NCBI GenBank assembly: GCA_039680785.1
Contig: JBDKSF010000082.1
Location: 1 to 36,220, forward strand
Direction: 5' to 3'
Length of the DNA stretch: 36,220 nt
Source: Candidatus Cloacimonas sp.
GTDB lineage: Bacteria; Cloacimonadota; Cloacimonadia; Cloacimonadales; Cloacimonadaceae
Below are positions 5,502 to 21,242 of the stretch, in pieces. The translations under genes were made by a program, and so were the position numbers. The notes below the pieces were generated by a model. It was not told the DNA's origin. It did not search any database and worked only from the letters and a program-made list of their open reading frames with translations. Position 1 is the first letter of the stretch, and each line of letters starts with the position of its first letter.

Positions 5502-7355
5502 CTATATTAGATCAGCCCACACAATTCCTTTGTCCACATCCACTTTGTAAATAACGATTTTCACTATCTCTGCGTGTGTGTAACTATCACATTTGGCGGA
5601 GATTACAAATCCCCAGGGGATTAGTTCCAAGCGCAAATATCCTTTTTCAAATGTTCTTACGCAAGCATCCAACGGAGTATTTAAGTAGTTCTGTCGGATA
5701 AATTGCAGCACCCAATAATGTTCACTCTTATGGGCTATTTCCTTCAAATATTGAAGATGTTTTTCAATATAAGGAATCTCGAACTCCAGCTCCTCTTGCG
5801 TAAAGGGTATTTTTTCTTTATTTAGCATAGCTAAAATCTGGCTCTGATTGACTAAATCCACATACCTACGCAAAGGAGAAGTTAAATGGGTGTATGCTTT
5901 CACACCAATTCCGCTATGAAATTCAGGATGAGTGGAAAGATATGCCTTGTTAACAAAAAAATTGGTGGCAATGTCTTCGTAATGATTGATATTGCGATAA
6001 ATAATCGGTAAGTTTGATTTTAAGGCATAATCTGCTAATGCGGAATTATACAGAATCATTAATTCTTCAATCATTTTGCGGGCTGGACTTTGTGTATCTA
6101 CGCATTTTGCTTCCAACCCTTTAGCGGTAGCCCTGATATAATAATAAAAGCGTTTATTTTCCGGGATGGAATCTGCTTCTCTCTTTGTTGCCAATGCGTT
6201 ACAAAATTTGGATAAAGTGGCGAAGGGTTCGTTGGCAATATCTCGCTCCACTTCATTATAACTGTAATTGGCAGAAATAGATATATTTTTGCGGCTAATT
6301 TCCGTTCGTTTAATCGCTAAATTCTTATCCACCCAAACAGTTAAAGCTAAAACCGGACGCACTGCATTTTCCAGCAAACAAAGTTCCTGTTCAGAATATT
6401 TGGGAGGAAATAAAGGTATAACTGCATTGGCAGTATATAATGTCACCACTCTTTTTTTGGCTTCGGCAAAGAGAGCTCCTTTCAGATTAAGCCGTTCAGC
6501 AACGGAACTTACATATATTCCAATTTTCCAGAGTGAACCTTTTTTAACGATGCTAATGGCATCATCATAATCTCGGGTAGTATCTTCATCAATGCAAAAA
6601 GATGTTTCTTCGGCAACGAGATTATCCTCGGGCTGTAGCTTTTCCTTATTTAATAAATCGGAAAAACCAATGGGGATGCCTGATTGTGCAATAACTGGAT
6701 CTATGTTGTCAGGCATTTCTCCACAGTCCATTCGAAATTGAATAATTGCTTCTTCAGGTTTCAGCTGCGCATATTTAGCCAGAATAAGTTGTCGCAACTC
6801 TTTGTGTTTCTTTTCGTTGTTTAATTCGGGCAGCAAGCAATAAAGTTTATGCTGAACTTGTTCACTTAATTTTGCACCCTTAAACCAACCATCTATCTCT
6901 TGCAAAAATTGCTTTTCCATTTCCTGCTCTTTTAGCATTTCAGTGTATAACGCAGTTTCTTCAACCGTTTTCAGACGATATTTATCTTTTTTATAGTGAA
7001 ATTGAGCGGGATTTTCCCTTAAATATTTTAACAGAGCAAATCGTTGAGCATCACTTAGCCAATTAAGCCGTTCCGCTATTTCTGACAAAGTATATTCCCG
7101 CTGCTGCATAAAATTGAAATTTAGCTTGGGCAAAATTGCTTCATTTTCAGACACTTGGGAAAAAAACATAGCTCTGGCGTCAGCAGGATATTTCTCTTTA
7201 CTAATCAGGATAAATCGCTCGGCAGGCAAAGTAAAATGAGTATTGCTTTCGGTTATAATTTCATAATATCGATTATTGCCAGCTGTTACATAGCCAAACT
7301 TCAGAATTCCCCTTTCATAATAGGCAACAAATTTATCTAATGGAATATCTTCCAA
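5502..7355 (-). CDS. RNase II/RNase R family 3'-5' exoribonuclease (RNB domain)
   Basis: The RNB domain shows the metal-binding aspartate cluster in FCIDEDTTRDYDDAISI near residue 255 and the conserved arginine segment YTHLTSPLRRYVDLVNQ near residue 495. This fits a processive 3'-5' exoribonuclease acting on single-stranded RNA. The C-terminus ends in a short beta-rich segment that may be a reduced S1 domain, and the N-terminus lacks an obvious pair of cold-shock domains. The frame is open to an ATG at 7403, but that ATG lies inside the tRNA-Arg gene. The TTG at 7355, with AGGAAGAAGGA just upstream, is the first sensible start after the tRNA and gives 617 aa. It is probably co-transcribed with the tRNA. 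RNase II is a better general label than RNase R, but the subfamily is uncertain. Confidence 0.85.
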   Translation of the reverse strand: MEDIPLDKFVAYYERGILKFGYVTAGNNRYYEIITESNTHFTLPAERFILISKEKYPADARAMFFSQVSENEAILPKLNFNFMQQREYTLSEIAERLNWLSDAQRFALLKYLRENPAQFHYKKDKYRLKTVEETALYTEMLKEQEMEKQFLQEIDGWFKGAKLSEQVQHKLYCLLPELNNEKKHKELRQLILAKYAQLKPEEAIIQFRMDCGEMPDNIDPVIAQSGIPIGFSDLLNKEKLQPEDNLVAEETSFCIDEDTTRDYDDAISIVKKGSLWKIGIYVSSVAERLNLKGALFAEAKKRVVTLYTANAVIPLFPPKYSEQELCLLENAVRPVLALTVWVDKNLAIKRTEISRKNISISANYSYNEVERDIANEPFATLSKFCNALATKREADSIPENKRFYYYIRATAKGLEAKCVDTQSPARKMIEELMILYNSALADYALKSNLPIIYRNINHYEDIATNFFVNKAYLSTHPEFHSGIGVKAYTHLTSPLRRYVDLVNQSQILAMLNKEKIPFTQEELEFEIPYIEKHLQYLKEIAHKSEHYWVLQFIRQNYLNTPLDACVRTFEKGYLRLELIPWGFVISAKCDSYTHAEIVKIVIYKVDVDKGIVWADLI

Positions 7356-7377
7356 ACTTTCCTTCTTCCTAAATTTC

Positions 7378-7453
7378 TGGCGCCCCAGAGATGACTTGAA
7401 CATCCGACCAACGGTTTAGGAAACCGTTGCTCTATCCTCTGAGCTACTGGGGC
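7378..7453 (-). tRNA. tRNA-Arg (anticodon CCT), with encoded CCA
   Basis: All cloverleaf parts fit: acceptor GCCCCAG/CTGGGGC, T8-A9, D stem GCTC/GAGC, anticodon stem ACGGT/ACCGT with loop TTCCTAA (anticodon CCT), five-base variable region, T stem GGATG/CATCT (one G-T pair) with loop TTCAAGT, discriminator G73 and an encoded CCA at 7380-7378. It reads AGG codons. It lies 22 bases upstream of the exoribonuclease start on the same strand and overlaps the longest version of that ORF. Confidence 0.97.
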
Positions 7454-19245: not shown

Positions 19246-19596
19246 GTGAGTAATTTCAGCAAAGAAGCCATTATCACCTGGCTGAAAGAGAAGAAAGCAG
19301 AAAACATTCGCATTTATGATATGCAAGATAAATGTGATTATACAGATACAATAATCGTTTGCGAAGGCAATGCCGATGTTCATAATAAAGCTATTGCCAA
19401 TTACCTTTTGGATATGCTAAAAGAAAATCATCTGCCATTGTTAAGCAAGGAAGGCATTGATTTTGGGCACTGGATTTTGATTGATGGCGGAGAAATTATC
19501 GTGCATATCTTTTTACCTGAAACAAGGGATTTTTATCATATAGATGACCTTTTAACCAAAATAGTGAATACGCAGACACAAGAGAGTAACAAATGA
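19246..19596 (+). CDS. rsfS: ribosomal silencing factor RsfS
   Basis: RsfS binds ribosomal protein uL14 and blocks subunit joining during starvation. The family motifs are IYDMQDKCDYTDTIIVCEGNA near residue 25, EGIDFGHWILIDGGEIIVHIF and ETRDFYHIDDL. The 116 residues match the family. The GTG start has GGAGA about nine bases upstream. It overlaps argS by 4 nt (ATGA). Confidence 0.95.
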   Translation: MSNFSKEAIITWLKEKKAENIRIYDMQDKCDYTDTIIVCEGNADVHNKAIANYLLDMLKENHLPLLSKEGIDFGHWILIDGGEIIVHIFLPETRDFYHIDDLLTKIVNTQTQESNK

Positions 19597-21242
19597 TTAA
19601 AGAACTACTGCATAAAAATATCGTGGAAGCACTGGATGCACTGAATCTTAGCCACTCAAAAGAGTTTGGCGTGGATGTTCCCAATAATTCTGAATTTGGT
19701 GATTTTTCTACTAACGCCGCTTTGGTCTTGGGTAAAGAAAACAAACAGTCCCCAAAGCAACTGGCGGAGAAAATAGTAAAAGAACTGAAGAAAAATAAAG
19801 CATTTAAAAAGCTGGAAATAGCAGGGCCTGGTTTTATCAATTTTTACTTAGCGCCTGCTTTATATCAACAGGTATTTTGGGAGATTTACAAAAACGAAGA
19901 ATATGGCAAAAGCGATTTCGGTAATGGCGAAAAAATATTACTGGAATTCGTTAGCGCCAATCCCACCGGTCCATTAAATATTGTAAATGCTCGTGCCGCC
20001 GCTTTTGGAGACACGCTTTATCGTATTATGAAATGTGTGGGTTATGCTCCTGCCAGAGAATTTTACATAAACGATGCCGGTAACCAAGTGGATATTTTGG
20101 CGGAGTCATTGGAACTGCGTTTGCGGGAAATCCACGGAGAGAAAATTGGGGAATTTCCTTATGAAGCATATCATGGAGAGTATGTAAAACATTTGGCTCA
20201 TCGCTTAAACGCTTTGGAAGGAACCCGTGTTTTTATGCTGCCTGAAAAAGACCGTTTGGAACACTTAAAAGAATTTGCTCTTTCTGAACTACTGGAAATG
20301 CAAAGAAGCTCTCTGGAAAAATTCGGAGTGGTATTTGAAGGTTGGGTTTCGGAAAAAGTTTTAAGATCTGAAGGTGTTGTGGAAGAAGTGCTTTCCTATT
20401 TAACTGAAGCCGATTGCACTTATGAAAAAGAGGATGCCATCTGGTTTTGCAGCACCAAGTTTGGCGACGATAAAGATAGAGTCCTGATGAAATCGGATGG
20501 TTCAATTACTTATTGCGTCCCCGACATTGCTTATCACCTAACGAAAATTCAGCGCGGATTCACTAAATTGATTGATATTTTCGGTCCCGATCATCATGGA
20601 TATGTTCCTCGGATCAGAGCTGCCTTCAGAGCATTGAATTATGACGATTCCATCTTAGAATTCATTTTCCTGCAGCAAGTGAACATTTTTGAAAGCGGAG
20701 AGAGAATAAAGATGAGCAAGCGGGCAGGTAAAATTGTCACTATGGACGAACTTATAAGTGTTGTAGGTAAAGATGCAGCTCGTTATTTTTTCATAGCTCG
20801 CAAAGCAAATGCCCATTTGAATTTTGATTTGGAGCTGGCGTTGAAAAAGAATAACGAAAATCCTGTTTATTACTGTCAATATGCTCACGCTCGTATTTGC
20901 AGCATCATCAAAAAAGCACGCAGCGTTAAAATGTACCCGAAGCACTTTACGAAGGAAATGGCAGGAAAACTAACCAAACCGGAAGAATTGGTTCTGATTC
21001 AAAAGATGGCAGACCTTCCGGAGCTGTTGATTCTGATCGCTAAATATCGCGAACCACATCGCTTAACTACCTATTTGGAAGAATTTGCTTCTTTGCTACA
21101 TCACTACTATGAAAAATATCAGATTGTAAATCCGAAGAATCCCACTCTTACTCAGGCACGCTTGATGTTGCTAATAACCGTAAAAAAAGTTATGGAAATT
21201 TGTTTTGATTTGCTGGGTATTAGCGCTCCGGAAAAAATGTAA
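19593..21242 (+). CDS. argS: arginyl-tRNA synthetase
   Basis: ArgS charges tRNA-Arg. Domain order is an N-terminal Add1 domain (about 1-100, including FGDFSTNAA and IAGPGFINFYL), the class I catalytic core, KMSKR at 373-377, and a DALR anticodon-binding domain (YYCQYAHARICSIIKKA onward). The HIGH motif position reads NPTGPLNIVNARAA, so residues 129-132 are N-I-V-N instead of H-x-G-H. The surrounding SANPTGPL and AREFYINDAGNQ are intact. The 549 residues are normal. The protein looks full-length, not decayed. A tRNA-Arg gene lies elsewhere in this window. Confidence 0.95.
   Translation: MIKELLHKNIVEALDALNLSHSKEFGVDVPNNSEFGDFSTNAALVLGKENKQSPKQLAEKIVKELKKNKAFKKLEIAGPGFINFYLAPALYQQVFWEIYKNEEYGKSDFGNGEKILLEFVSANPTGPLNIVNARAAAFGDTLYRIMKCVGYAPAREFYINDAGNQVDILAESLELRLREIHGEKIGEFPYEAYHGEYVKHLAHRLNALEGTRVFMLPEKDRLEHLKEFALSELLEMQRSSLEKFGVVFEGWVSEKVLRSEGVVEEVLSYLTEADCTYEKEDAIWFCSTKFGDDKDRVLMKSDGSITYCVPDIAYHLTKIQRGFTKLIDIFGPDHHGYVPRIRAAFRALNYDDSILEFIFLQQVNIFESGERIKMSKRAGKIVTMDELISVVGKDAARYFFIARKANAHLNFDLELALKKNNENPVYYCQYAHARICSIIKKARSVKMYPKHFTKEMAGKLTKPEELVLIQKMADLPELLILIAKYREPHRLTTYLEEFASLLHHYYEKYQIVNPKNPTLTQARLMLLITVKKVMEICFDLLGISAPEKM

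Follow-up and report, generated by a model that had tools for sequence, protein, structure and literature searches.

A histidine-free variant of the HIGH signature in the arginyl-tRNA synthetase of Candidatus Cloacimonas sp. and of other bacterial lineages

The argS gene and its surroundings

The window, the stretch of 36,220 nucleotides analysed here (contig C82, JBDKSF010000082.1, of the Candidatus Cloacimonas sp. assembly GCA_039680785.1), carries an arginyl-tRNA synthetase (ArgRS) gene with the following features.

19593..21242, forward strand: argS, arginine-tRNA ligase; complete ORF of 549 aa with an ATG start, matching TIGR00456
19977..19988, forward strand: codons 129-132, N-I-V-N in the place of the HIGH signature (translation and alignment with 3fnr)
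20583..20597, forward strand: codons 331-335, G-P-D-H-H; Pro332 accompanies the His-less motif; 62 of the 77 readable canonical ArgRS of NPTGP type have Ala here
20676..20678, forward strand: codon of Gln362, where 72 of the 77 readable canonical ArgRS of NPTGP type have Leu, Phe or Met
20709..20723, forward strand: codons 373-377, KMSKR, the second class I signature, intact (translation)

The gene is preceded by those for a nucleotidyltransferase, a HIT protein, a LytR_C protein and RsfS, and it shares 4 bases with the end of rsfS. It is followed by genes for a GNAT acetyltransferase, an FAD protein of the fumarate reductase/aspartate oxidase type, thymidylate kinase and an S41 peptidase, and no sign of a mobile or accessory copy was seen among the genes around it. 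The host genome (2.07 Mb, 99.17% complete, 122 contigs) was searched with the family model and only one match was obtained, so that no second argS was found in the assembled contigs; as a control, the same search detected argS in all 14 known genomes. Elsewhere in the window a tRNA-Arg (CCT) at 7378-7453 on the reverse strand covers the first 26 bases of the ORF 5502-7403 on that strand, and the true start of this ORF is therefore probably further in.

The protein scored 427.5 bits against the TIGR00456 equivalog model (cut-off 261.65) over residues 2-549, and three domains exceeded their gathering scores: PF03485 (N-terminal), PF00750 (catalytic) and PF05746 (DALR anticodon-binding). The ArgS-related anticodon-binding protein NrtL (NF045898) was also considered and rejected, the score of 118.2 bits lying below the 340 required.

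In the translation the motif reads NPTGPL-N129-I130-V131-N132-ARAAAFGD, its four codons being AAT ATT GTA AAT. Pairwise alignment with the ArgRS of C. jejuni (3fnr) places N-I-V-N directly beneath H-I-G-H, so this is the true signature site and not a shifted match. The translation and the alignment thus bear out the preliminary description, which had reported that both histidines of HIGH are replaced; its further statement that KMSKR and the remainder of the protein are intact agrees with the translation, the TIGR00456 score and the domains. Its account of the loss was correct for the two histidines but missed the glycine: three of the four HIGH positions are changed, including Gly to Val at position 3. 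The protein therefore has none of the three residues by which HIGH is recognised (His at positions 1 and 4, Gly at 3), and it does have K-M-S-K in the loop after the fifth strand (K373-M-S-K-R377). The GXHH arrangement of IleRS2 (Gly or Ala at 1, His at 3 and 4) is absent, N-I-V-N standing in its place. With no His, Val at position 3 and Pro332, the protein fits the N-x-V-[SN] subgroup as defined here.

An AlphaFold2 model was obtained with a mean pLDDT of 91.5, and in it the motif is predicted to lie between a strand (114-122) and a helix (130-148), where the class I fold puts it. When the model was compared with solved structures, the top 14 rows by Z were all ArgRS chains. Of the solved ArgRS, 3fnr comes nearest (Z 40.8, 446 residues, rmsd 2.1); it has HIGH, and the five ArgRS chains whose alignments were inspected are all H-x-G-H; no solved structure of a member of the variant group was found.

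Distribution of the variant signature

Among 31 named ArgRS loci (26 from Cloacimonadota/Cloacimonetes, one from Candidatus Syntrophosphaera, which we take to belong to Cloacimonadota, and four from other groups) the nearest to the window ArgRS is 91% identical and the four from other groups are 39-45% identical. The ArgRS of Candidatus Syntrophosphaera thermopropionivorans (L047) reads NIVS. The comparison was extended to 124 genomes of the phylum, in which the argS family model gave some match in 117 and a match above the cut-off in 110. A DNA pattern for NPTGPLN[IV]V was present in 112 of the 124, and in 16 of 165 genomes from outside the phylum, while a control pattern read backwards gave 0 matches. 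The 12 pattern-negative phylum genomes (G002, G006, G008, G044, G049, G052, G056, G099, G102, G109, G117 and G119) yielded argS fragments lacking the motif, nothing, or weak matches of about 17-22 bits, and in none of them does an argS match span the motif. The weak matches, mostly in long ORFs, were taken for other synthetases. In G044, which is scored as 100% complete, no argS was found, the best family match (1.3e-4) being in an 827-aa ORF; this is probably an assembly gap.

The motif was read in 111 phylum genomes, with one ArgRS each (the variant copy of the pattern-positive G045 was left out), and was NIVS in 59, NVVS in 23, NVVN in 20 and NIVN in 9. Asn129 and Val131 are thus present in 111/111, with Ser at position 132 in 82 and Asn in 29. 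Lys376 is present in all 109 readable cases, where the second signature is KMSKR in 108 and MMSKR in one. On a FastTree tree of Cloacimonadota, Ser and Asn have been exchanged at position 132 at least nine times, which rules out that Asn at position 4 is special in itself. A single base separates the window codon AAT from AGT (Ser), the codon in the five near relatives compared; as 29 of the 111 have Asn at this position, the finding does not depend on that base being right. Between the window argS and its 91% identical relative dN is 0.058, with synonymous sites near saturation. The gene is under purifying selection, and the variant is fixed and constrained across the phylum.

No further argS above the cut-off was found in 107 of the 111 genomes in which the variant motif was read. 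The canonical second ArgRS that the preliminary description had proposed to look for is likewise not seen in the host genome, although five of the 124 phylum genomes carry one beside the variant: HLGH in G036, G045 and G059 (loci L069, L095 and L140) and HIGH in G076 and G077 (L064 and L063). Both genomes examined from the genus of G076 and G077 have the extra copy. These five copies may be contamination rather than native genes.

A further 160 genomes were searched for argS, of which four, all without argS, were from Cloacimonadota and 156 from outside it. A match was obtained in 148 of the 156 and none in eight. The 148 genomes gave 149 ArgRS (two from G175), two of them unreadable at the motif. 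The remaining 147 comprised 89 with H-x-G-H, 25 with no His, three with G/A-x-H-H and 30 with at least one His in some other arrangement. Val occupies position 3 in 24 of the 25 His-less proteins ([NVL]-[VIA]-V-[SNQ]), position 1 being Val or Leu in five of these 24; the remaining one is TIGS (L262). By family code the 24 variant genomes fall in 24 families, and they likely span nearly as many phyla, G130 and G278 sharing one. In the phylum of G130 the DNA pattern was found in 23 of 39 genomes, and the family model recovered an argS from 14 of the other 16, in every case N-[IV]-V-S with GPDH. Asn at position 1 and Val at position 3 are therefore present in 37/37 readable genomes of that phylum, the fourth residue being read in 14 only. 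Two further phyla, sampled by one and two genomes, gave the variant in 1/1 and 2/2.

Other rare ArgRS signatures were encountered in this survey: HIGR (L195, L207), HVGN (L162, L239) and the TIGS of L262. Ala replaces the HIGH glycine in four ArgRS of canonical type, L216, L205, L294 and L173 (TVAH, TVAH, TIAH and HIAH respectively).

The preliminary description regarded the loss of both histidines as deserving a check, and the departure is indeed noteworthy. A reading of the motif as peculiar to one gene, or as the sign of a defect, was not supported: the motif is shared by 111/111 phylum ArgRS and 24/147 readable ones from outside. Judged from the sequences compared, the variant is shared by many bacterial lineages and is no defect of a single gene; the window motif is unusual as a signature but ordinary within its ArgRS group, which explains the apparent oddity. 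The clade-wide alignment that had been suggested as a check on the description's concern thus revealed a common variant, which is probably also an active one.

Origin of the variant and positions that change with it

In an unconstrained quick tree with 132 rows (one of 133 was dropped for having too few filled columns) the variant label needed eight changes, and few deep branches were supported. A set of 70 rows was then used to compare trees with and without a variant clade. It contained all 24 outside variants, six Cloacimonadota and 40 canonical sequences, the last made up of 34 random rows and the undrawn ones of ten named rows (intruders in the first tree and G-to-A rows). Free quick trees of these rows had 6 and 9 changes of label. 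The tree in which the variant rows were held together was better than the free tree by 53.2 likelihood units (p-AU 0.87), and it was still higher by 37.8 (p-AU 0.83) after removal of the linked columns (119-142, 329-336, 360-364, 371-378, 237 and 258). As the variant-together tree has the higher likelihood, a single origin stands unrejected; it appears to be the best fit of the trees found, which is not proof of it.

Positions linked to the motif were sought against 78 canonical NPTGP-type ArgRS, a set that includes four loci from genome contigs (L057-L060) in addition to the whole-genome panel and leaves out L262, which belongs to neither group. Position 135 is Ala in 22/24 outside variants vs 0/78 canonical sequences, which mostly have Gly, Gln, Asn or Trp. 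Pro332, the x of GxDHH, is present in 24/24 outside variants and 109/109 readable phylum members vs 3/77 readable canonical ones, and Gln or His362 in 21/24 and 108/109 vs 0/77. Gln237 was found in 19/24 outside variants vs 7/77. Lys376 separates the groups less than these four positions do (24/24 vs 37/77).

The three canonical sequences with Pro332 are three of the four that have Ala at position 131 (TVAH, TVAH and TIAH, with GPDH for GADH); the HIAH row has Ala332, and none of the 73 readable canonical rows with Gly131 has Pro332. As the canonical Pro332 rows also have the glycine changed, a link between positions 131 and 332 is suggested. The three rows sit on separate, weakly supported forks of the tree, and L262 has Pro332 together with Gly131. 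A test on independent pairs gave on average 2.0 for, 0 against and 1.0 neutral for Pro332, and 0.8 for, 0 against and 2.2 neutral for Gln/His362, in each case with just three pairs on well supported branches. There was no support for Lys376 (0.3 for, 0.4 against, 2.4 neutral). The linked changes could reflect shared ancestry instead of compensation.

Function of the variant and comparison with known systems

HIGH is a textbook hallmark of the class I synthetases, whose histidines and glycine are described as necessary for the transition state and for adenine. A housekeeping enzyme that is essential and yet lacks all three of these residues is therefore a natural test of the role of the signature. 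Arginylation is not known to have a bypass, and the product of the sole argS of the genome should accordingly be active. We consider it likely, with a probability of about 0.8, that the window ArgRS is the only and working ArgRS of the cell, that it comes from an old and widespread bacterial subgroup, and that its ATP site no longer uses HIGH. That the enzyme is active is most likely, given that it is encoded by a single copy and is conserved.

Formation of arginyl-adenylate would then still run in the same fold. Contacts to the phosphates and the transition state would come from the lysines of KMSKR, and the N-terminal end of the helix beginning at the motif could add others. That the second KMSK lysine is invariant in the variant suggests that this loop bears the phosphate work. 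Asn129 and Asn/Ser132 might donate hydrogen bonds in place of the histidines, and for Asn at position 4 the TyrRS His48Asn work of Fersht's group is reportedly a precedent. Asn129 cannot, however, be a phosphate ligand in general, as position 1 is Val or Leu in five of the 24 outside members. Val131 would fit a pocket that has been reshaped, with GPDHH and Gln/His362 as its likely other half. The HIGH glycine is reported to make room for adenine, and IleRS2 makes space for a bulkier third residue by a shift of the helix tip (PMC10485003); by analogy a similar shift could accommodate Val131, perhaps with Pro332 and Gln/His362 as partner changes.

Several other explanations were weighed. The possibility that N-I-V-N is an error of sequencing, assembly or alignment is practically negligible: the Asn132 codon is indeed a single base off those of near relatives, but the recurrence of N-x-V across genomes inside and outside the phylum, with nothing from the reversed control, rules out an artefact for Asn129 and Val131. 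It is very unlikely that the window ArgRS is catalytically weak or dead, with the real arginylating enzyme absent from the assembled contigs or not recognised. In several class I enzymes activation reportedly becomes about 1000-fold slower when the first His is mutated (PMC10485003), and the extra HIGH or HLGH copies in five phylum genomes would suit such a reading; yet the host genome has no second argS, and Asn129, Val131 and Lys376 are invariant in a phylum where the gene is under purifying selection. Nor can a missing contig be the explanation when 107 of 111 variant genomes have no further argS above the cut-off.

Neutral drift is a possible but rather unlikely account. In this case HIGH would be dispensable in the background of these enzymes, activity would be lower but sufficient, and the co-occurring changes would merely hitch-hike on ancestry. 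The Ser/Asn switching at position 4, the choice of Asn, Val or Leu at position 1 outside the phylum, and a LeuRS urzyme in which replacement of HVGH by AVGA raised activity (PMC10450160) are all consistent with drift, and the independent-pair test, with its three well supported pairs, does not separate compensation from ancestry. Against it, Val131 is invariant both inside the phylum and in the 24 outside members (where it is part of the group definition), as is Pro332, which is no part of that definition. The co-occurrence of Pro332 with Ala131 in canonical sequences also argues against drift, although L262 pairs it with Gly, as does the strong energetic coupling of the HIGH and KMSKS signatures in full-length LeuRS (PMC10450160). 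That the motif was selected as protection from a natural inhibitor mimicking ATP or arginyl-adenylate seems distinctly improbable. There is a parallel in IleRS2, where the altered motif has His instead of Gly as its third residue and increases the Ki of mupirocin up to 1000-fold at a mild catalytic cost (PMC10485003), and in all members of the ArgRS variant Val takes that place; but most phylum genomes read have the variant as their one, inherited ArgRS and not as an additional resistant copy. A bolder form of the preferred reading, which we regard as speculative and on balance improbable, would have the whole ArgRS branch working without any HIGH side chain, by KMSKR and backbone contacts alone, with a pocket rebuilt around Val131, Pro332 and Gln/His362 that shields it from natural inhibitors mimicking the adenylate.

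The variant has become fixed in no fewer than two phyla and also occurs in many further families, and annotators should not take loss of HIGH alone as the sign of a dead enzyme. No description of an N-x-V-S/N form of ArgRS was found in the open-licence PMC literature, judged mostly by titles and abstracts.

Of the known systems, the canonical NPTGP-type ArgRS of C. jejuni (3fnr) shares with the window ArgRS its fold, the NPTGPL context and the KMSKR loop; it differs in having H-I-G-H, GADHH and Met362 where the window ArgRS has N-I-V-N, GPDHH and Gln362. The loss of the histidines has a precedent within class I, since bacterial TrpRS, which carries TIGN for HIGH, is a working synthetase without the signature histidines (PMC10201369). 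TrpRS keeps Gly at position 3, where the window ArgRS has Val, and the two differ in subclass and amino acid. For the loss of the glycine the precedent is IleRS2, functional with GXHH, which like the window ArgRS has naturally lost the His of position 1 together with the Gly of position 3, and has done so over whole lineages; it tolerates the motif through a differently placed active-site helix (PMC10485003). GXHH nevertheless retains His, and the window ArgRS has none. Against the reading of the window ArgRS as a working enzyme, mutation of either HIGH histidine in TyrRS is reported to lower activity (PMC5919687). In the LeuRS mutants in which HVGH was changed to AVGA, both histidines are replaced and KMSKS is kept, much as in the window ArgRS; AVGA is a laboratory mutant whose full-length form is less active than the wild type, whereas the ArgRS variant is natural and has Val for Gly as well (PMC10450160 for LeuRS). 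The natural ArgRS variant thus complements the laboratory work on the coupling of HVGH and KMSKS in LeuRS.
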